Assembly: GCA_937873255.1 (NCBI GenBank)
Contig: CALMVM010000240.1
Location: 375-10,938 of the forward strand
DNA from: an uncultured Verrucomicrobiota bacterium
Lineage (GTDB): Bacteria > Verrucomicrobiota > Verrucomicrobiia > Chthoniobacterales > SZAS-18
DNA length: 10,564 bases
Direction of reading: 5' to 3'
The number at the start of each line of letters is the position of its first letter. The first letter of the stretch is position 1. Positions 3,022 to 10,564 of the stretch are shown piece by piece. The notes below the pieces were generated by a model, which saw only the letters and a list, made by a program, of their open reading frames with translations, was not told the origin of the DNA and did not search any database. The position numbers were made by a program, and so were the translations under genes.

Positions 3022-3151
3022 TGGTGACCCCCTTCATGAAATCAAACGCCGCAAGTAGCGCAAGGCCTCTTGTGCCTCGGCCAAAGTGCGGAATTTTACG
3101 CCACACTCCGAGCTTTTCCTCTGCCGAAGCCTGCGACATAGATTGTCCCGC
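3022..3151. promoter_or_regulatory. Divergent intergenic region before the second XRE gene
   Basis: This region should carry promoters for the XRE/monooxygenase pair and for the 239-residue gene. It contains an imperfect stem with CTCGG (3076-3080) and CCGAG (3108-3112) arms and AGTG/CACT inner pairs, followed by CTTTTCC, near an AT-rich core. That could be an operator or a weak terminator-like hairpin. No confident -35/-10 set is assigned. Confidence 0.3.
3028..3034 (-). promoter_or_regulatory. Shine-Dalgarno of the 239-residue gene
   Basis: AAGGGGG on the minus strand, 6 bases before the ATG at 3021. It fixes the start of that gene and overlaps by one base the TGA of the small upstream reading frame (3034-3036). 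Confidence 0.65.
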
Positions 3152-3153
3152 AT
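3034..3153 (-). CDS. Possible small ORF or gene remnant upstream of the 239-residue gene
   Basis: A 39-codon minus-strand frame from an ATG at 3153 to a TGA at 3034-3036. Its last 20 residues (KFRTLAEAQEALRYLRRLIS) have the Ala/Glu/Leu composition of a genuine amphipathic helix, unlike its Cys/Arg-rich start. The stop codon touches the Shine-Dalgarno of the 239-residue gene, as in translationally coupled operons. Either it is a short real protein, or it is the surviving 3' end of a longer gene whose front was replaced when the adjacent XRE gene arrived. Its first bases overlap the plus-strand XRE start, which argues against both starts being correct. No homolog is recognised. Confidence 0.25.
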   Translation of the reverse strand: MRDNLCRRLRQRKSSECGVKFRTLAEAQEALRYLRRLIS

Positions 3154-3556
3154 GACGCTACACGAACGCCTGCGATTATTGCGTGAAGAGATGGGCATGT
3201 CGCAAAAGGAGATTGCTGCGCAGGGGTTTGTATCGGCTTCAGAATGGGCAAAGCTGGAAGGTGGTCAGCGCTCGCCCAGCGACAAAACGCTCATGCGTCT
3301 GGTCAGTTGGTTGATCAGGGAAAAGCATCTCAGCATGAACAGAGCGCCGAGAGTTTTGGAGGAACTGCTCACGCTCAAACATTTGAGCAACAGCTCGGCG
3401 TTTGTCCGTCGCCTCGTACGCAACTATGCCGAAGATCTGTTCGAAGGCACATCTCTGCGCTTGGCCGAAGATCCCGCCGTCTACCGGCCGAAATCCCGTC
3501 GAAAGCCGACGCAGCCAAAGACGGCGCAACCAAATGTGAGCGGGCTTCAGAAATGA
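3152..3556 (+). CDS. XRE-type regulator, partner of the monooxygenase gene
   Basis: A 134-residue protein with an N-terminal HTH domain: LHERLRLLREEMGMSQKEIA, then the recognition segment with SEWAKLEGGQRSPS (about residues 1-58). The domain is followed by helical sequence (60-100) and a basic Pro/Lys/Thr-rich tail (KSRRKPTQPKTAQP). The family role is DNA-binding repression or activation. The start chosen is the ATG at 3152, one residue before the usual first helix. A GTG at 3086 would add 22 Cys/Arg/His-rich residues that look non-coding. The stop overlaps the ATG of the FAD monooxygenase (ATGA at 3553-3556), so the two are translationally coupled. The regulator probably controls its own operon, perhaps in response to the monooxygenase substrate. 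It has no visible ligand-binding domain, so sensing may need a partner. It is unrelated in detail to the XRE protein at 347. Confidence 0.85.
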   Translation: MTLHERLRLLREEMGMSQKEIAAQGFVSASEWAKLEGGQRSPSDKTLMRLVSWLIREKHLSMNRAPRVLEELLTLKHLSNSSAFVRRLVRNYAEDLFEGTSLRLAEDPAVYRPKSRRKPTQPKTAQPNVSGLQK

Positions 3557-4698
3557 ATGTGCTAATCATTGGAGGCTCGCTTTCCGGCCTCACCCTTGCG
3601 TTGGCGTGCGCCCATCGCGGGATAACCGCCTGCGTCCTAGAACAATCGGACGGCCCACGGCGTCGTGGCGGGACTTTGGGCGTGAATCGGGGACTGCTGA
3701 TGAAAGTCATCGGAAAAGGCGCACGTCACAATGATGCGGGTCGCTTTTTTCCCGTCTTGGCTGGCAGGCGCATGGCGGTTGCTTGGCAGAACCTTTACGG
3801 TTGGCTACACGCCGAGGCGAGGTGCCACCCAGCCGTTACCCTTGAAGCCGGGGTATCGGTGGTGGAGATCAACCAAGATAGGGACGGCGTGACCGCAGTC
3901 GCCGCCGATGGCCGACAGTTCTGGTCAGATCTGATTGTCGGTGCCGACGGGTACCAGAGTTTCGTTCGCAAGGTAATCAATCCCGGTGAGGCTGAGGCCG
4001 CGTACGCGGGATACTTGCTCTGGCGGGGCCTAGTCGATGAGACGGAACTGCCTCTGGATCGTCTTCCGGGTGACCACGAGGAGGTCGTGCTGGTCAACAA
4101 GGCAGGACACCGCTTGGTCGCCTACGCGGTTGCTGGCCCGAATGGCTCGCTGGTGGCGGGCGAACGCCTGCTCAGTTTCACCTGGTACGACGGTGGACAC
4201 AGTGACCTTCTTCGCACGTCGGGTTGTGTCAGTGGTTCGGGTTACGTTCTCCGCACCTTGGCCGAGGAAAACATCCACGCCGAGGCAAGCGACAAGCTCT
4301 GCGAATTGGCCCGCCGCATCTGGCCGGCCCCCTGGCGCTCAGTCATCATCCACGCGTTTGAACGTCGTCAGGCTTTTGCTACGCCGGTGGCTGAATATCT
4401 TCCGCGGCATCTGGTTCACGGCCGTCTGGCGATGATCGGCGATGCTGCCCATGTCGTTTCGCCGGTCATGGGCAAAGGCTTTCTCAGTGGCATCGGTGAC
4501 GCAGCTACTCTGGTAGAATGCCTCGTTCGCTACGCTGGCGACTCAGGTCGAGCGGTCCCGGCGGCACTTGCTGCCTATGAGCACCGACGACTGCCGGAGG
4601 CACATGCGCTAGTATCAACTTCACAGCAGTGGAGCCGGGATTTTGTTGGAGCATGGACTTCCGCCGCCCAACGACCTCGACCAAAAGCCGAGGTGTAA
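3553..4698 (+). CDS. FAD-dependent aromatic monooxygenase (group A flavoprotein)
   Basis: A 381-residue NAD(P)H- and O2-dependent flavoprotein hydroxylase of the PHBH/UbiH class. The Rossmann dinucleotide motif is a variant, IIGGSLSG (5-12), ending at E30. The DG motif is VGADGYQSFVR (129-139) and the second FAD-ribityl motif is MIGDAAHVVSPVMGKG (294-309). YAGYLLWRG (151-159), RLVAYAVAG (187-195) and LLSFTWY (206-212) recall 2,6-dihydroxypyridine 3-monooxygenase and relatives. Substrate is therefore likely a hydroxylated N-heterocycle or phenol, but this is family inference. The long open frame begins further left at 3244. The true start is the ATG at 3553, which gives the canonical beta strand MNVLIIGG and overlaps the stop of the XRE gene. 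Length matches the family. No ring-cleavage or transport gene is nearby, so it may act alone or in a tailoring or detoxification role. Confidence 0.92.
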   Translation: MNVLIIGGSLSGLTLALACAHRGITACVLEQSDGPRRRGGTLGVNRGLLMKVIGKGARHNDAGRFFPVLAGRRMAVAWQNLYGWLHAEARCHPAVTLEAGVSVVEINQDRDGVTAVAADGRQFWSDLIVGADGYQSFVRKVINPGEAEAAYAGYLLWRGLVDETELPLDRLPGDHEEVVLVNKAGHRLVAYAVAGPNGSLVAGERLLSFTWYDGGHSDLLRTSGCVSGSGYVLRTLAEENIHAEASDKLCELARRIWPAPWRSVIIHAFERRQAFATPVAEYLPRHLVHGRLAMIGDAAHVVSPVMGKGFLSGIGDAATLVECLVRYAGDSGRAVPAALAAYEHRRLPEAHALVSTSQQWSRDFVGAWTSAAQRPRPKAEV

Positions 4699-4797: not shown

Positions 4798-4804
4798 CGT
4801 GTGC

Positions 4805-5941
4805 ATGAAAAAATCACTCCCTACACCGGCTGTCCAAGATCAGGTCTTTTTGCCGTGCGAAAGTAAACGCCGTGGTGCTGCCAAGCCCCCACGGTTCGTC
4901 ACACGCTTGGCTCCGACGCTTTTAGGAAAATCCCGGGCGGTCAGCTACATTCCAGGCGAAAAGCCCCGCAAAGAACCATCTGTCCTCCCCCGGCTCTTCA
5001 TCCGGGGGCCCAACGGCGGCAGCATCAAGCTGGACTTAGGTGGGGTGGGCATAGGCTTCTCCAAGGCCGCCTTCGCGCATTTAGTGGCCGACCACTCTCT
5101 TCTGTCGCTGCATGTCTGCCCGGGAGACATCGCTTTGATCGAACCGGCCGTCCGGCGTGTCCACAACGGAAATCTGATGCTGTTGGAGATCAATGGTCAG
5201 CCGGTGATCCGGCGGCTTCGAAGGGAGAAACGTCTCTGGATGCTGGATTTGGTGGGCAGGGGCTCGGATGGATCGATTCCGTTCGCCGAGTTGGGAATCC
5301 AAGGCGTGGTAATTGGGTTCGTGCGCTTGTTCAACGAAATCAGGCCCGTCAGGTACGAGGGCACCGATGCGAACTTCAGCATGGGGTTTGAGGTTCCAGT
5401 CCCACCAAAAAAAAGATGGAAGCAGGCAGCATTTCTGGAAAATCCTTGCAGTCGCGTACGTCTAGCTCGGGGCGGGGCCGACCTCGGGCACCTCTTTTCT
5501 GTGAATGAACTCGGCGAGGAGAAGACAATACACGATCATGGCAGCAGGCCCGCAGGGTCAAAAGTACTGCAACCGGTGGCCATGACCTCGGTGTCTTCCT
5601 GTGCCACGGATCAGGACGCAGACAGCGCAGGCAAAGGGGGGAACAAACGTAGGAGTGGGCGTGCTAGGCAGCAGGAAAAGTTGCCGCCCGCTGATTCGCT
5701 CGATACCCTTCTGCGGGAGCGGGAACGTCTCAAGAGAGAAAACCTACGACTCCTCAGAGCAAATAACCGGTTGATCCGCCAAATGCTCGCCGACGATCAG
5801 GCCGCTTTGAGCCGCAAGCATATACCTCCTGCGGCATCGCACACCGACTCACCGGCCACTACAGATCTATCTACCCCGGCGTCCGGCCCGATAGGCGCTG
5901 AAGGTGCTCCAGTTCAGCGTCGATCTCGCTCTTCGAAGTGA
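4805..5941 (+). CDS. LexA/S24-fold-like protein with C-terminal coiled coil
   Basis: A 378-residue protein (ATG 4805). Residues about 60-176 resemble the C-terminal LexA/UmuD (S24) fold: a Ser at S98 ten residues before the PGD turn (D108), then VHNGNLMLLEINGQPVIRRL (119-138) and the closing IQGVVIGFVRLF (165-176). The catalytic Lys position is Arg (R136), so self-cleavage activity would be lost or altered. No helix-turn-helix is seen in the basic 60-residue N-terminus. The middle is low complexity. Residues about 298-336 (LDTLLRERERLKRENLRLLR and following) form a Leu/Arg/Glu heptad coiled coil suited to dimerisation, and the tail is Ser/Pro/Thr-rich and basic. It is probably a regulator or adaptor. 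The S24 assignment is by eye and moderate; the coding call is firm. It overlaps the convergent sigma gene by 71 bases. Confidence 0.8.
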   Translation: MKKSLPTPAVQDQVFLPCESKRRGAAKPPRFVTRLAPTLLGKSRAVSYIPGEKPRKEPSVLPRLFIRGPNGGSIKLDLGGVGIGFSKAAFAHLVADHSLLSLHVCPGDIALIEPAVRRVHNGNLMLLEINGQPVIRRLRREKRLWMLDLVGRGSDGSIPFAELGIQGVVIGFVRLFNEIRPVRYEGTDANFSMGFEVPVPPKKRWKQAAFLENPCSRVRLARGGADLGHLFSVNELGEEKTIHDHGSRPAGSKVLQPVAMTSVSSCATDQDADSAGKGGNKRRSGRARQQEKLPPADSLDTLLRERERLKRENLRLLRANNRLIRQMLADDQAALSRKHIPPAASHTDSPATTDLSTPASGPIGAEGAPVQRRSRSSK

Positions 5942-6623
5942 CGGTGCGCCCGATTTCCTCTCGCAGGATCTCACGGAAACGCTGTCGCCAACGCGCCAGA
6001 GCGGCGTGCAGTGCATCCACGCTGGTGCCGAGTGACCAGGCAGCCTCCTGATATACAAACTCGCGGGGGCAGGCTTCCAGCACGGCGTCGAAATATCCGA
6101 ACAGGACCTCTCTACCTTTCGCTCGCATCTCCACGCGCAGTTCACCGAGCGCGTGCTCGATCAGGGTCGCTGCCCACTGACGCTCGTAAAATGCTTCGGG
6201 CGAGTCCTGTGTCACCAAACCCTTCAGGTAGAGCCCCTCCGCCTCTTGCGCGTCGAAGGAAACGACTTGGCTGCCCCACCCCCGCCACAAGGTCCAACGC
6301 CGGCGATGATGGCTGATCAAAAAGTGGCGCAAGGCGACGGAGAGGTACGAACGGAAGCGCCCTTTGGCCGCGTCCAACTGATCCAGCCATTTTCCTTTGA
6401 GCAGATGAACGAAAAATTCCTGTGTGAGGTCCTGAGCATCGTGCACGGAGTGGCCGTGGTGCCGGATGCACGCGTAAACCGGCCGCCAGTAAGCCTGGCA
6501 AAGCTCAGACAGTGCTACGCGGGCCTTCGCCTGATCATCCTGCAGACAAGCGGCGACCACCGACCAGCGCGTGGTCGAAAACACTCTGGCCGCGCCGATG
6601 CTGAACCAGTTGGTGTTTTCCAC
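5871..6623 (-). CDS. ECF-type RNA polymerase sigma factor
   Basis: A 250-residue sigma-70 family factor of the PVC-type ECF groups linked to Ser/Thr kinases. The N-terminal FSTTRWSVV (15-23) is typical. Region 2 contains DAQDLTQEFF (62-71) and the GRFRSYLSVALRHFL segment. Region 4 is YQEAAWSLGTSVDALHAALARWRQRFREILREEI (about 191-224, shown here in part: YQEAAWSLGTS and RFREILREEI). It should direct RNA polymerase to promoters of an unknown regulon. The open frame extends upstream to an ATG at 6809, but that ATG lies inside the kinase gene and the added residues look non-coding. GTG at 6623 gives the usual short lead before TTRW; GTG at 6584 is the alternative. No anti-sigma gene is visible. 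The divergent Ser/Thr kinase at 6777 is the likely signalling partner. Confidence 0.87.
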   Translation of the reverse strand: MENTNWFSIGAARVFSTTRWSVVAACLQDDQAKARVALSELCQAYWRPVYACIRHHGHSVHDAQDLTQEFFVHLLKGKWLDQLDAAKGRFRSYLSVALRHFLISHHRRRWTLWRGWGSQVVSFDAQEAEGLYLKGLVTQDSPEAFYERQWAATLIEHALGELRVEMRAKGREVLFGYFDAVLEACPREFVYQEAAWSLGTSVDALHAALARWRQRFREILREEIGRTVTSKSEIDAELEHLQRLSGRTPG

Positions 6624-6776
6624 GCGTTGGAAACTAAGGAATTCTCCCCGGCTAAGGCAAGCACCATCGCGCTGATGGAGCCCGACCTCGACAATAAATT
6701 GGCTTGTCTCACATCGGGTGCCAGCCTCAAAATTCCGTCCCCTTGAAGGGGGAGCATCCCAGAAACCCGTTTCCGT
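6624..6776. promoter_or_regulatory. Divergent promoter region of the sigma factor and kinase genes
   Basis: This 153-base gap must hold the promoters for both genes. It contains the perfect dyad CCCCTT-G-AAGGGG at 6739-6751, 25 bases before the kinase ATG. The dyad could be an operator, a hairpin in the kinase leader or, through its AAGGGGG half, a distant ribosome-binding element. No clear ECF-type GGAAC/CGTC promoter with correct spacing was found. Confidence 0.45.
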
Positions 6777-9503
6777 ATGGCACGAGGATCCACAGAAGGT
6801 GAAATCCAAGCAGACCCGTTCCCACTAGGAGCCTTGGCCGTCCGCCCTGCTCCAAGATGTGTGAACTGTGGCGGGCGCGCCTCGGGTCTGGCAACGGGCA
6901 AATCGCGCCTCTGTGAAAGCTGTGTGCTCGCTTGGGCGTTTGAACCGTGTGAACCGTCCGCTGATACCACTGACCCCACCCCGTCGTGGGAGAGCGATGC
7001 ACCGGTGCTCGGCCCCTATGTCTTGGTCGAGGAGATCGGCCGGGGCGGCATGGGTGTGATCTACCGGGCCGTGCATCGTGAGACGCGAGAGGTGGTGGCA
7101 CTCAAAACCGTTTTGCCGCAGTATGCAGACGACCCAGAAATTTTAGCCCGGTTCCGACGTGAAGCGGAGACAGCGCAGAACCTGGATCATCCGCACACGA
7201 TGCCGATTCTTGAGATTGGGTGCTCGGAGAAAGGCATGTCGTTTTTCACCATGCCGTTGGCTTTGGGCGGAAGTCTTCACCACCTCAACGCCAAGTACCG
7301 CGGACGGTGGCAGCGGATCGCCGAACTCATGGTGAAAGTTGCCCGTGCGGTCCATCATGCACACCTCCGAGGCATCCTTCACCGCGACATCAAGCCGGGC
7401 AACATCCTTTTCACGGAAGAGCATGAGCCGTTGATTGCTGATTTTGGTCTCGCAAAGCCGCTAATAGGATCCAACGATCTGACGCGTTCGTGTACGGTGC
7501 TGGGAACTCCGAACTACGTGGCACCCGAGCAGATCGCCGGAAAAGCCTCTGATCTGACTGCCGCGACGGACGTTTATGGTCTCGGCGCGGTGCTTTTCGA
7601 GTTGCTCACCGGTCGCCCTCCATTTGTGGGCAATAATTCACTGGAGGTGCTTGAACAAATCGGCAAACGGCCGGCCATTCGCTCAAGTCGACTCGTCTCC
7701 GGCGTACCTAAAGGGTTGGATCAAATCTGTGCACGTTGTTTGGAGCGTTTGCCTACGAACCGCTACCTTTCTGCAGGGGATCTAGCCAATGACTTAGAGT
7801 GTTGGCTAGATGGACGACCGATTGCCGATCTTCCGATGGGCTCGCGTCTGCGCAGGTGCCTTGAACGTCATCCAACAGTTCGGGCGTGGTGCGCCAGCGC
7901 AGGCGCATTGGCGACCGTAGCGCTGATCACGTGGATGGTCAGACCGTTCCCAACTCCGTCTCGGCCGGCGATTGGCGTGGCGGTGATAGTTGACGCAATG
8001 GACGGGGGACCAGTCTCCCGACAGATTGCTCAGCGGCTAACCAACGAATTGAGACAGGATCTTTCCGCCAACCACAATTTTGAACTGCAAGGTAGGCGGG
8101 ACAATCTTCCAGTCACGAAAACAACATTGCTTGATCCGTTGGCTTACGGTCGGATGGTCAACGCTCAGATTTTATTGACCTGCTACGTCAGGCAAGTGAG
8201 CGACGGTGCCCATTTGGTCGTGCGATTTATACGGTGTGACAGCGGAGACGCCATTTTTGAGAAAACCATAAGCGTGCCCAAAAACCATTCAGGCGGTACG
8301 CTGGCCGTGGCGGCCAAAACGTTCCTCAATGATCTTCCGAAATCTTGGAATGCTCTTCCAAGCAGTCTCGCCAAGGTGCCCACTTCTTCGTCCCCAGATG
8401 CCCAAGCGTTCTTCGCTCGCGCAATGGAATTGACCAAGCATCGCAATTCACGCGATATGGAGGCCGCGATTGAGCTGTTCCGAATGGCTAAGCAAGCAGA
8501 CCCACAATTTGTCGACGCGCACGCGATGCTAGGTCTCGCTTTGTGGACGATGGGTGACTCCTTCGGATACGTTGATCGGTACGCGGCTGCTTTCCAGAGC
8601 GCGCAAAGGGCTCTCACACTCGACCCGAATTGCGCACAAGCGCACCGGGTGGTTGCTGACTATCATTTCAGTGCGGCTCGCTATGAGGAGGCTTTACAAG
8701 AATATGGAAGGGCTGTGGAACTTAACCCGCGTTCGGCCGGCTGTTGCCAAGCACTCACCATCTGCTTGCGCCAAATGGGACACCTCGAAGAATCGCTTCC
8801 TTGGGCCAAGAGGGCTGTCTGGTTAGAACCCGCTCGCGGCACATTTTACGCTACATTGGGAGAAACGCTTAGCCTCTGCGGTTTGGATGATCAGGCGGAG
8901 ACGGCGCTGCAGCGAGCGGTAGAACTGGAGAAAGATTCACCCGATTCGCCGTTTGCTTTGGTAGCTTTGCGAATGTGGCAGAAGCGCTTTGATGAAGCTC
9001 GTATTTTGAGCGAGCAGATGCATAGCCGTTTTCCTGATTATTATTACGGCTTGAACTATGCCGCATGGATCGATTTTTGTAGCGGCCAATTGTCGGAGGC
9101 TCAAGGTTACTACGAGACGATGCGCTCAAAAAATTCCTATCAGAAGCAATGGGATTTTCATGGGGGGATCAACCCTGCTTCGGCCCTCGCTTACATCGAG
9201 CTCCGATCTGGTTCGGCCAAACAGGCACGAGCATTGGCTGGTGAGGCCCTTCTCATCGACCGTGAGTTGCTTGCCAAGTATCCAAATAATAACCGAATTC
9301 TGCACGACATCGCCGCAACCTACGCAGTCTTTGGCGATGAACAAAAAGCTTTGCTTTACCTAGAGCAAGCGCTGGCGGCAGGTTGGGCCGAGCACCGTTC
9401 AACAAGGATCGATCCAAGATTTGCTAAATTTGCTCGACTTGCTTCATTTGAAGTACTATTAAAAGGCGAAAAACCAAAATATAACGCAGTTGGGGACTTG
9501 TAG
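6777..9503 (+). CDS. Transmembrane Ser/Thr protein kinase with zinc ribbon and TPRs
   Basis: A 908-residue Hanks-type kinase. The N-terminus has a zinc-ribbon-like C28-x2-C31-x14-C46-x2-C49. The kinase domain (about 80-345) is complete: IGRGGMG (87-93), K110 in VALK, E129, HRDIKPGN (202-209), DFG (222-224) and APE (249-251). One membrane span follows (about 371-388), placing the kinase in the cytoplasm and the rest outside it. Residues 397-520 resemble the FlgO/TolB-N-like domain often found in such receptors. Residues about 540-895 form at least five TPR units (for example ALTLDPNCAQAH, AVELNPRSAG, AVELEKDSPDS) for protein binding. ATG 6777 is the first possible start, because an in-frame TGA lies at 6744. 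It is divergent from the ECF sigma gene, a pairing known in PVC bacteria, so it may phosphorylate that factor or a nearby regulator. The RiPP genes just downstream could be a target, but nothing proves it. Confidence 0.95.
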   Translation: MARGSTEGEIQADPFPLGALAVRPAPRCVNCGGRASGLATGKSRLCESCVLAWAFEPCEPSADTTDPTPSWESDAPVLGPYVLVEEIGRGGMGVIYRAVHRETREVVALKTVLPQYADDPEILARFRREAETAQNLDHPHTMPILEIGCSEKGMSFFTMPLALGGSLHHLNAKYRGRWQRIAELMVKVARAVHHAHLRGILHRDIKPGNILFTEEHEPLIADFGLAKPLIGSNDLTRSCTVLGTPNYVAPEQIAGKASDLTAATDVYGLGAVLFELLTGRPPFVGNNSLEVLEQIGKRPAIRSSRLVSGVPKGLDQICARCLERLPTNRYLSAGDLANDLECWLDGRPIADLPMGSRLRRCLERHPTVRAWCASAGALATVALITWMVRPFPTPSRPAIGVAVIVDAMDGGPVSRQIAQRLTNELRQDLSANHNFELQGRRDNLPVTKTTLLDPLAYGRMVNAQILLTCYVRQVSDGAHLVVRFIRCDSGDAIFEKTISVPKNHSGGTLAVAAKTFLNDLPKSWNALPSSLAKVPTSSSPDAQAFFARAMELTKHRNSRDMEAAIELFRMAKQADPQFVDAHAMLGLALWTMGDSFGYVDRYAAAFQSAQRALTLDPNCAQAHRVVADYHFSAARYEEALQEYGRAVELNPRSAGCCQALTICLRQMGHLEESLPWAKRAVWLEPARGTFYATLGETLSLCGLDDQAETALQRAVELEKDSPDSPFALVALRMWQKRFDEARILSEQMHSRFPDYYYGLNYAAWIDFCSGQLSEAQGYYETMRSKNSYQKQWDFHGGINPASALAYIELRSGSAKQARALAGEALLIDRELLAKYPNNNRILHDIAATYAVFGDEQKALLYLEQALAAGWAEHRSTRIDPRFAKFARLASFEVLLKGEKPKYNAVGDL

Positions 9504-9563: not shown

Positions 9564-9890
9564 ATGCCAACTAACAACATCACAAACCCATTGGACTGGA
9601 ACGAAGAGAACCTGGAGCGCGTCGTCACTGACCTGTACCGGGAGATCGAGTCGAACGAGGGCCTGCGCCAACGTCTGCTGGCCGATCCCTTCGAAGTGCT
9701 CAGCAGCAGGATCGCCATCCCCGAGAGCTATCGTGGCGGCATCCTCCTGACGCCGAAGGGGCAGGACACCATGGTGTTTTACGTGCCCCCTGCGAACGCG
9801 GGGCGCACCGAGGCCGCTGTGGAAGGCACTGCCGAGGAAACACCCCAGAAAAGCTACCAGATGCTCTGTACTGTCGGGACGTCGTGGTAG
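9564..9890 (+). CDS. NHLP-leader (proteusin-like) RiPP precursor peptide
   Basis: A 108-residue protein whose first 76 residues fit the nitrile-hydratase-like leader peptide family: an amphipathic acidic helix, LRQRLLADPFEVL (34-46), the IPE turn (52-54) and the strand DTMVFYVPP (68-76). In that family the leader is bound by maturation enzymes and the C-terminal core is modified and released. Here the region after PP is an Ala/Thr/Glu linker followed by SYQMLCTVGTSW (97-108). This tail has one Cys (C102) and Ser/Thr at 97, 103, 106 and 107 as possible sites of dehydration or cyclisation. A Gly-Gly cleavage site is missing near the tail; G58-G59 is inside the leader. The adjacent convergent gene is a LanM-type dehydratase, which supports the call. 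A stand-alone small NHLP protein with no processing is the main alternative. GC content is higher than in the end of the kinase gene. Confidence 0.7.
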   Translation: MPTNNITNPLDWNEENLERVVTDLYREIESNEGLRQRLLADPFEVLSSRIAIPESYRGGILLTPKGQDTMVFYVPPANAGRTEAAVEGTAEETPQKSYQMLCTVGTSW

Positions 9891-9893
9891 ACG

Positions 9894-10564
9894 CTACTGA
9901 CTAACGGTCTGGTACAGAACACCCTCGTTCGCTGCCGGTGCAAAAGCGTCGATAATAATGCTCTCCTGCTTCAGGAATGCTTCGATGTTCTGCACCGGCA
10001 GCGTCATCTCTTGTTTCCGCTCGTGTCCAATGACTTGTTCAAAATAGGGAACATCCATTTGTATGAGTGACGAGCGCTCATCCTCGGTGATGGGCAAGTC
10101 ATGCTGGCCGATGTGTAGACACTCGGCAGCGAAGCTCGCGGCTGTACGCAAGGATTGTGGCTCGATCATCCGTTCGATCACCGACCCATACCACGAGGTT
10201 GAACGAAGGATTCTACGCCGTCGATACTGAACCAAATCTTGCACCCAAAGTTCAAATCCTTGCTCTGGACAACGTTCTTCAAACACCTGCTTCCCGATCC
10301 AGTGGAAACCTGCTAGAATATCCGGCAGAAAATCTGGTGCCGGATGCGCAACACCCCCAAACACCGGCAGATGACGCGCTGCTTGGAGACTTGAATCTGG
10401 CTGGTGGCTGAGTGCATTCCATTCGTAAGTCGCACCGCGAAGTAGATCAGTTTGTGGGAGGAAACCGGTGCGCAATACCGCGTCGGCAGTTGGGTGATCT
10501 GCCGCGCCGATGTGCTCCTGCGGATGCCACAATGTTTCTAGGTCGATGAGCACAGGATGAGCGC
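9894..10564 (-). CDS. LanM-type (DUF4135) dehydratase without LanC cyclase domain, 5' end beyond the right edge
   Basis: The frame is open to the right edge and reads AHPVLIDLETLWHPQ there, so the apparent GTG start at 10553 is internal; only about 223 C-terminal residues are seen. The motifs follow the LanM dehydratase order: LIDLETLWHP (kinase-like lobe, metal-binding Asp), VLRTGFLPQ, the R-rich RRRRILRSTSWYG segment holding the Arg and Thr linked to phosphate elimination in this family, and LIQMDVPYFEQ near the end. LanM enzymes phosphorylate Ser/Thr of a precursor peptide and eliminate the phosphate to give Dha/Dhb. Full LanM proteins continue for about 350-400 residues as a zinc LanC cyclase. 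This one stops about 50 residues after the DVPYF motif. It is thus a dehydratase-only form, like PoyF of polytheonamide biosynthesis. Its stop lies 3 bases from the end of the convergent precursor gene. Confidence 0.82.
   Translation of the reverse strand, partial: AHPVLIDLETLWHPQEHIGAADHPTADAVLRTGFLPQTDLLRGATYEWNALSHQPDSSLQAARHLPVFGGVAHPAPDFLPDILAGFHWIGKQVFEERCPEQGFELWVQDLVQYRRRRILRSTSWYGSVIERMIEPQSLRTAASFAAECLHIGQHDLPITEDERSSLIQMDVPYFEQVIGHERKQEMTLPVQNIEAFLKQESIIIDAFAPAANEGVLYQTVSQ

Follow-up and report, generated by a model that had tools for sequence, protein, structure and literature searches.

A recurrent kinase-associated cassette of Chthoniobacterales pairing a LanC-less LanM-type enzyme with a small protein of an NHLP-like family

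Introduction

Among the described systems closest to the locus analysed here are the polytheonamide proteusins, of the PoyA/PoyF/PoyD type. Signalling proteins with kinase and/or tetratricopeptide repeat (TPR) parts also occur beside peptide-modification systems, as in the kinase/cyclase fusions of thiazole/oxazole-modified microcins (TOMM; TIGR03903) and with the TIGR04510 cyclase, and sigma factors of the extracytoplasmic function (ECF) type that are controlled by kinases are known. Here we analyse a stretch of 10,564 nucleotides, hereafter the window, from an uncultured verrucomicrobial bacterium of the order Chthoniobacterales (assembly GCA_937873255.1, contig CALMVM010000240.1, or C240), at whose right end a gene for a small protein meets, tail to tail, a gene for a LanM-type dehydratase that lacks a detectable LanC cyclase domain. 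It is reasonably likely that the window carries one copy of a cassette conserved in the order, in which the LanM would dehydrate a Thr or Ser placed directly after a core Cys, under the control of a kinase and a sigma factor.

The nearest characterised stand-alone LanM that we found is EmbM, the phospeptin enzyme, whose dehydration-site residues are mutated and which only phosphorylates, according to the part of PMC9259500 that deals with it. The order itself is placed among the prolific verrucomicrobial producers in PMC8692599, in what that source says of it in general terms.

Results

The cassette and its distribution

The window corresponds to C240:375-10938, on a contig of 17,828 bases in a draft genome of 5.02 Mb. 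The small protein, of 108 amino acids and the predicted substrate of the LanM, is encoded by an open reading frame (ORF) at 9564..9890 on the plus strand; it has siblings on contigs C311 and C459 of the same genome and belongs to a family of which a search found 38 proteins. The C-terminal half of the LanM gene (DUF4135) occupies 9894..10562 on the minus strand, leaving 3 bases between both genes. A first-pass annotation, made from the letters alone, had described a precursor ending 3 bases from the end of a LanM-type dehydratase gene on the other strand, and both the ORF coordinates and the PF13575 match of the 9894-10564 protein (67.9 bits, cut-off 29) agree with it. Upstream of the small-protein gene by 60 bases and on the same strand lies a gene for a Ser/Thr protein kinase with TPR repeats (908 amino acids; 6777..9503, plus strand; Pfam Pkinase 155.7 bits, plus TPR), preceded by a gene for an ECF-type sigma factor (5871..6641, minus strand; TIGR02937 43.7 bits, cut-off 42.9, and PF04542) that is divergent from the kinase gene here and co-directional with it in relatives.

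When 213 genomes of Chthoniobacterales were searched, DUF4135 was found in 27. Loci with LanM frames of up to 757 amino acids (short-frame loci) numbered 24 in the order, eight of them making up the window's family (C240, C311, C459, C583, L044, L045, L046 and L047) and 16 a sister family, f8 (L048-L058 and L145-L149). A kinase-TPR gene was a neighbour at all 24 and a small ORF lay between LanM and kinase at 23, always opposite to the LanM (23/23) and, with one exception, on the strand of the kinase (22/23). A homologue of the sigma factor adjoined the kinase at 17 of the 24 loci, among them 15 of the 16 in f8, where the remaining one is at a contig end. The opposite orientation of precursor and enzyme, annotated as unusual for a RiPP (ribosomally synthesised and post-translationally modified peptide) operon, is thus real but conserved here, and it is a trait of the cassette that is distinct from proteusins.

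Eight LanM loci of the order have long frames (830-1064 amino acids). Neighbours could be read at seven of them, and none of the seven had a kinase there; L061 had a weak TPR-only match nearby, L062 was too short for a reading of its neighbours, and in L150 and L151 little sequence flanked the LanM on one side. Beyond the order, a sample of 384 genomes of the class contained one further frame below 700 amino acids, from another order and with no cassette genes found (L144), and a sample of 387 genomes of the phylum also contained one (L156), both samples being even draws and not whole groups. When 84,980 species genomes were scanned for a single peptide pattern, 204 relatives were obtained, and the cassette was present in six of the best 80 of these, all six already in f8. 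As a separate observation, a full-length LanM of Myxococcaceae lies directly beside a kinase-domain protein of 1343 amino acids (L135:9527-16828), possibly another kinase-linked lanthipeptide locus.

The window's genome has four DUF4135 loci; in two of them, those of C311 and C459, the LanM has a related small protein convergent to it. Its four cassettes (L013, L014, L015 and L002) are on contigs of 56, 65, 66 and 59% GC, the LanM of C311 has an in-frame stop and that of C583 is apparently frame-shifted, so that some of these copies may be decaying or come from another organism.

A conserved C-terminal core

The predicted core of the window protein, YQMLCTVGTSW (9855..9887, plus strand), is formed by its last 11 residues, including Cys102-Thr103, in accordance with the very short core noted at first. 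All 14 proteins whose leader is of the window type contained the pattern Y-Q-x-L-C-T-x-x-x-x-W, which in 13 of them forms the extreme C-terminus; these rows had been selected by the leader word PESYR and not by their tail. When four rows from the window's family served as the query, the 38 proteins mentioned above were collected, every one with C-T or C-S beyond residue 60, and among the cassette ORFs a C-T/S near the C-terminus was found in 21 of 23.

With E up to 1e-3 as the limit, 973 proteins of the sister type were found, which makes the family a common one. Of the 120 that were listed, 118 showed C-[T/S]-aromatic-x-x-aromatic, with T in 113 and S in five; Tyr and Trp were constant in these 118, the two positions before the invariant Trp were variable, and the remaining two proteins were of a peroxidase-only type described below. 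The replacement of Thr by Ser is compatible with a Ser/Thr dehydratase. Those of the 120 that bear a name are called 'hypothetical protein', except P0001. Pairwise comparison of five sister-family small-protein genes gave pN values of 0.08-0.18 against pS values of 0.52-0.95; together with the shared tail of the 14 proteins, this exceeds what chance would give. In L053, L054 and L055 the coding regions of small protein and LanM overlap tail to tail by 60-111 bases, so that the core-encoding stretch runs antisense to the last part of the LanM gene.

The LanM enzyme

The LanM frame of the window has 222 amino acids and is open past the window end. It matched positions 345-473 of 932 of TIGR03897 with 59.9 bits, below the cut-off of 304 as befits half a gene, and ended 42 residues past this match with no LanC domain detected in the frame, as the claim of a dehydratase without cyclase had anticipated. 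The right edge of the window is a scaffold gap of 10 N (C240:10939-10948; a second gap, C240:365-374, lies just left of the window), past which the LanM resumes (L002:10951-11748, minus strand; 187 bits to TIGR03897 positions 2-248), both halves joining at HREN / AHPVLID, where the alignment places them about 5 residues apart.

For CylM, the part of PMC4550811 on catalysis gives Lys274, Asp347, His349, Asn352 and Asp364 as phosphorylation residues and Asp252, His254, Arg506 and Thr512 as phosphate-elimination residues. Equivalents of Asp364, Arg506 and Thr512 are on the window half and those of the other catalytic residues on the half beyond the gap. Across 16 cassette LanM rows (L047, L013, L015 and L145-L149 were omitted), Asp252, His254, Asp347, His349, Asn352, Asp364 and Arg506 were kept in all, and the only exceptions were Lys274 to Arg in L053 and Thr512 to Ser in L057 and L058.

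These residues bear on whether the LanM might only phosphorylate the small protein, as in phospeptin, whose architecture, a sole LanC-less LanM as maturase, is the same as far as PMC9259500 goes on this point. The elimination residues mutated in EmbM are nevertheless retained by the window LanM (Asp252, His254, Arg506 and Thr512) and by the cassette rows (the first three in 16/16 and Thr in 14/16), which makes phosphorylation as the sole reaction quite improbable. Dehydration is expected for the cassette LanM because residues kept here are those mutated in the phosphorylation-only enzyme.

Ring closure was approached through LanC. It was detected in none of the 24 cassette LanM frames (two examined by their C-terminal piece only) and in seven of the eight long-frame LanMs of the order. 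A LanC-like match (PF05147) was likewise missing from 17 of the 19 cassette genomes, the window's draft genome included, which argues against enzymatic ring closure; the other two encode a LanC-like protein elsewhere. These two genomes are what a class II lanthipeptide with its cyclase elsewhere, yielding a (methyl)lanthionine ring from Cys and dehydrobutyrine (Dhb), can call upon, along with the full catalytic LanM set, the Cys and Thr of the core, and the T or S that follows C-[T/S] two or three residues on in 24 of the 25 family members outside the window type. However, the lack of LanC is common to the whole LanM clade, no LanC was found either fused or in the window's draft genome, and a Cys directly before Thr could presumably form only a seven-membered ring with that residue, so we regard such a lanthipeptide as unlikely.

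In a LanM tree, 20 rows from 19 of the 24 cassette loci, both window halves among them, formed one clade (support 97/91) that left 17 long and three further short LanMs outside (L013, L015, L145, L146 and L148 were omitted). Three lines of evidence, from the arrangement of the genes, the residues of the enzyme and the motif of the core, converge on one and the same pair of enzyme and substrate.

The small protein and its relation to NHLP precursors

The leader of the window protein had been annotated as NHLP-type, which stands for the family and not for the protein by itself. The window protein had no match to TIGR03793 nor to any NCBIfam or Pfam entry up to E = 1, and its siblings matched TIGR03793 weakly (22.6, 19.4 and 21.5 bits, cut-off 50.9). 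When 19 family members were aligned by hhalign with four bona fide NHLP precursors, the probability was 87, with E 4e-6 over 66 columns; by this profile-profile match the label 'NHLP-like' holds at the level of the small-protein family. The C311 and C459 proteins are 27 and 23% identical to the window protein by alignment, and the latter as a lone query reached its C311 sibling only at E 0.44. An AlphaFold model of the window protein had pLDDT values of 81-85 over residues 11-50 and under 50 in the tail (75-108). A structural proof of the NHLP fold was dropped, as a partly confident model whose best Foldseek match had E 4 neither supports nor refutes it.

The sibling small proteins also matched nitrile hydratase weakly, and the family profile recovered, at 3e-7, a genuine-looking nitrile hydratase alpha chain (L167). 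That the core Cys-Thr might be homologous to the metal claw of that enzyme (VCTLCSC in L167) was weighed but set aside, since by eye the claw follows the equivalent of the small proteins' LLPP strand, about 20 residues before the core Cys-Thr. In a further departure, the small ORF beside the LanM of genome G004 (L045:10063-10323) has a Lys/Ala-rich, histone-like leader, yet its C-terminal end is ECTQGGGTNPPT.

The first-pass annotation took the locus for the edge of a proteusin pathway (PoyA with a PoyF-type dehydratase, and epimerase, methyltransferase and C39 exporter), a reading to which the NHLP-like family relation and the dehydratase-only LanM lend themselves. It also held that failure of the precursor to match the NHLP profile would refute it, and for the window protein no such match was obtained. 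Moreover, the LSDxELExVAGG leader end of NHLP precursors, present in those of L060, L063 and L156, was absent from all 19 aligned cassette proteins; a bare AGG (L044) or GG (L055) stands shortly before the core in those two only and not in the window protein. The core is of about 11 residues. Sequence to the right of position 10564, where further pathway genes had been anticipated, contained the continuation of the LanM but no recognised RiPP gene: 14 ORFs compared with Pfam (a few shorter ones were not run) included no RiPP family, 11 of them having no family over cut-off. No C39/NHLM exporter was among these 14, in which only HTH_31, VKOR and DDE_3 exceeded the cut-off, a genome-wide search not having been made. 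A search for a PoyD-type epimerase (TIGR04517) gave no match in this 89.98%-complete genome, but its controls were silent too. A textbook proteusin-like cluster does exist elsewhere in the phylum (L156:3084-10749), with a LanC-less LanM, a methyltransferase, a PoyD epimerase (547 bits, NCBIfam) and two NHLP precursors (95 and 101 bits); its make-up is quite unlike that of the cassette, and its LanM falls outside the cassette clade. Taken together, a proteusin pathway is highly improbable here.

The haem peroxidase of the sister family

In all 16 loci of f8 an animal-type haem peroxidase gene (typed by Pfam in two) lies upstream of the LanM on the same strand, and the 15 peroxidase rows that were aligned keep the distal and proximal His motifs. 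Seven more loci (L157-L163) have the same peroxidase convergent with the same small protein but no LanM. Their cores, picked by eye, read WIGTWVPY (L157), WVATWPPY (L158), WVAAWPPY/WIAAWSPY (L159), MMCCYQAW (L160), FRCTWFPY (L161), FKGAWFPY (L162) and FQGCFTKF/FEGFYFVW (L163). In two of these loci (L159:7677-8405 and L163:8868-9620), a single frame beside the peroxidase contains two small-protein units joined head to tail, and each unit has a separate core.

Within the sister family, C-T/S was found in 16 of 16 loci with LanM against one of seven with peroxidase only, whereas the aromatic residues were mostly retained. Fisher's test gave p 7e-5 for C-T/S against LanM presence, a descriptive value only, since related loci are treated as independent; the counts omit L166 and L168, with no small protein on the contig, and L164, L165 and L169, with a truncated one. 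On the peroxidase tree, LanM presence changes four times and the core three times, and as the branching of the LanM tree resembles that of the peroxidase tree, losses are favoured over gains for these changes.

No peroxidase of the f8 family was found in the window genome at E up to 1e-10, and its genus-mate G002 has a distant one (L173), away from any cassette. A strict rule by which an aromatic core means peroxidase was abandoned: Tyr and Trp are both retained in the window-type core, in a genome where such a peroxidase was not found.

Regulation

Judging from gene position, the kinase and the sigma factor probably gate expression of the small protein. A conserved block, ATTTTRTKCTTG, precedes the sigma gene in all seven aligned g22 loci (L048, L050, L051, L052, L056, L147 and L148) and is a possible autoregulated promoter. 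An ECF promoter common to both arms was considered and discarded, nothing as clear as ATTTTRTKCTTG being found before the peroxidase gene. A defence-system reading was also rejected, since among five proteins submitted to PADLOC the window kinase was the only one with a match, and this lay in the kinase domain.

The same gene position would suit a different role for the small protein, that of a sensor for the kinase/sigma pair or a regulator of it, with the modified tail serving as a reactive switch or as a cofactor bound to the protein and no natural product being released. Neighbour clustering revealed no exporter or protease common to the cassette loci (an ABC transporter was near L049 and L054 only), and no GG site is conserved. 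In L160 and L163, the whole small proteins start like signal peptides and the paired peroxidases like twin-arginine substrates (by eye), which fits enzyme and substrate sharing one compartment and would suit a sensor or switch as well. Against it, NHLP-like leaders and LanM belong elsewhere to natural-product machinery, variable positions stand between the conserved core residues as in secreted peptides, and L044 and L055 have their AGG or GG shortly before the core. A sensor or switch of this kind is an appreciable possibility, though on balance rather doubtful.

Surroundings of the window cassette

The left flank of the window cassette includes, besides the kinase-TPR and sigma factor genes, those of an S24-like protein and of an FAD-binding protein; on the right, past the LanM, an HTH_31 helix-turn-helix protein, a DDE_3 transposase and a VKOR-domain protein were found over the Pfam cut-offs. 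The transposase (L002:13970-14947) is about 2 kb past the cassette. Related helix-turn-helix proteins (E 4e-26) are on both sides of it (window 3086-3556 and L002:11803-12240), and a third (E 4e-35) is near the L044 cassette. S24/LexA-like proteins are encoded at three loci of the window's family (window 4799-5941, L013:3299-4363 and L044:6106-7053), divergently from the LanM in L013 and L044, with the L013 assignment made by similarity only. The FAD-binding protein (PF01494; window 3394-4698) had no homologue at any of the other 23 loci searched, and it might stand in for the peroxidase as an oxidative partner of the Tyr/Trp core.

Discussion

From the conserved gene order, catalytic residues and core described above we infer that the small protein is the substrate of the LanM, that it is dehydrated and that its expression is under kinase/sigma control. 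In the mechanism that we propose, kinase and sigma factor would detect a signal and turn on the small protein, and its NHLP-like N-terminal part would dock it on the LanM. This enzyme would then phosphorylate the Thr or Ser after the conserved Cys and eliminate the phosphate, giving Cys-Dhb or Cys-dehydroalanine. The Cys may remain as a free thiol, forming a reactive pair with the alkene, may add without a cyclase to a dehydro-residue such as that from the second Thr of C-T-x-x-T cores, or may cross-link molecules. In the sister family, the haem peroxidase may oxidise the flanking Tyr/Trp. The product may act with its leader still attached, given that no exporter or GG protease site is conserved in the cassette.

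Several observations weigh against this reading. Within the window's own family, a sigma homologue adjoins the kinase at only two of eight loci (three of the eight are on contigs of about 5 kb or less), C583 (L015) has no ORF between LanM and kinase, kinase and small ORF are on different strands in C459, the small ORFs of L046 and L047 have no C-T/S despite the presence of LanM, and the Lys-rich leader of L045 is not of the NHLP kind. The window protein has no TIGR03793 match, as noted, and Foldseek found no structural relative with its model. The source genome is a draft of 642 contigs, for which the assessment tool estimates a completeness of 89.98% and a contamination of 3.68%, and this incompleteness also counts here. 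Outside the cassette, L061:8625-11315 encodes a long LanM-like frame (896 amino acids) with no LanC detected and no kinase neighbour, so that lacking LanC does not by itself define the cassette, and a kinase-domain protein was near the LanM in six of the 74 other relatives, L135 included, without sigma factor and small protein. With regard to the link between LanM and core, L161 keeps RCTWFPY with no adjoining LanM; the sister of L161 is a LanM locus, and genome G057, to which L161 belongs, encodes a LanM at another place. In an underpowered test on independent pairs, 2.6 of three pairs agreed (p 0.25).

In the open-access literature, which is a partial view and no proof of absence, neither this arrangement nor a pairing of haem peroxidase and RiPP was found described, and the cassette is apparently an undescribed, recurrent, kinase-linked route to a modified peptide. 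As a tentative proposal, almost as apt to hold as to fail, it could represent a new RiPP-like class, in which a kinase-ECF sigma circuit is combined with a cyclase-free LanM acting on one Cys-Thr/Ser pair and, in the sister family, with a haem peroxidase acting on Tyr/Trp; the two enzymes would be modules that can be parted, their target residues being gained and lost together with them, and the product might be a reactive tail or cofactor that stays bound to the protein, not an antibiotic that is released. If so, Ser/Thr kinase/ECF-sigma signalling would be linked to RiPP chemistry in a largely uncultured order, an animal-type haem peroxidase would be brought into RiPP biosynthesis, and the loci without LanM would offer natural 'mutant' cores for the substrate residues.

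Comparison with known systems

The signalling part of the cassette recalls TIGR03903 and TIGR04510, to which the window kinase scored 107 and 21 bits, far below their cut-offs of 705.75 and 400. The peroxidase shares with animal-type haem peroxidases (PF03098) the GQFxxHD-type and FRFGHSM motifs, with matches to lactoperoxidase and myeloperoxidase chains; unlike them, the f8 enzyme adjoins a LanM and is paired with a small protein, and it was not found in the window genome. With class II lanthipeptides that have an NHLP leader, represented locally by L060, the cassette has the DUF4135 dehydratase domain in common; in L060, in contrast, the LanM has 1059 amino acids with a LanC half, the NHLM exporters contain a peptidase domain and the NHLP leader scores 70.5 bits.

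Proteusins, of which L156 is the local example, are alike in their NHLP-family leader and in a LanM dehydratase without cyclase. They differ in that no PoyD epimerase or methyltransferase was found with the cassette, whose small proteins have no AGG motif at the leader end and a core of about 11 residues, and which is itself convergent, with kinase and sigma factor attached and a LanM clade of its own. Finally, phospeptin (EmbA/EmbM of Ca. Eudoremicrobium malaspinii), as far as it is portrayed in PMC9259500, also combines a single precursor with a single LanC-less LanM maturase; the elimination residues mutated in EmbM are conserved in the cassette LanMs, and it is on the cassette side that the NHLP-like leader, the kinase, the sigma factor and, in relatives, the peroxidase are found.

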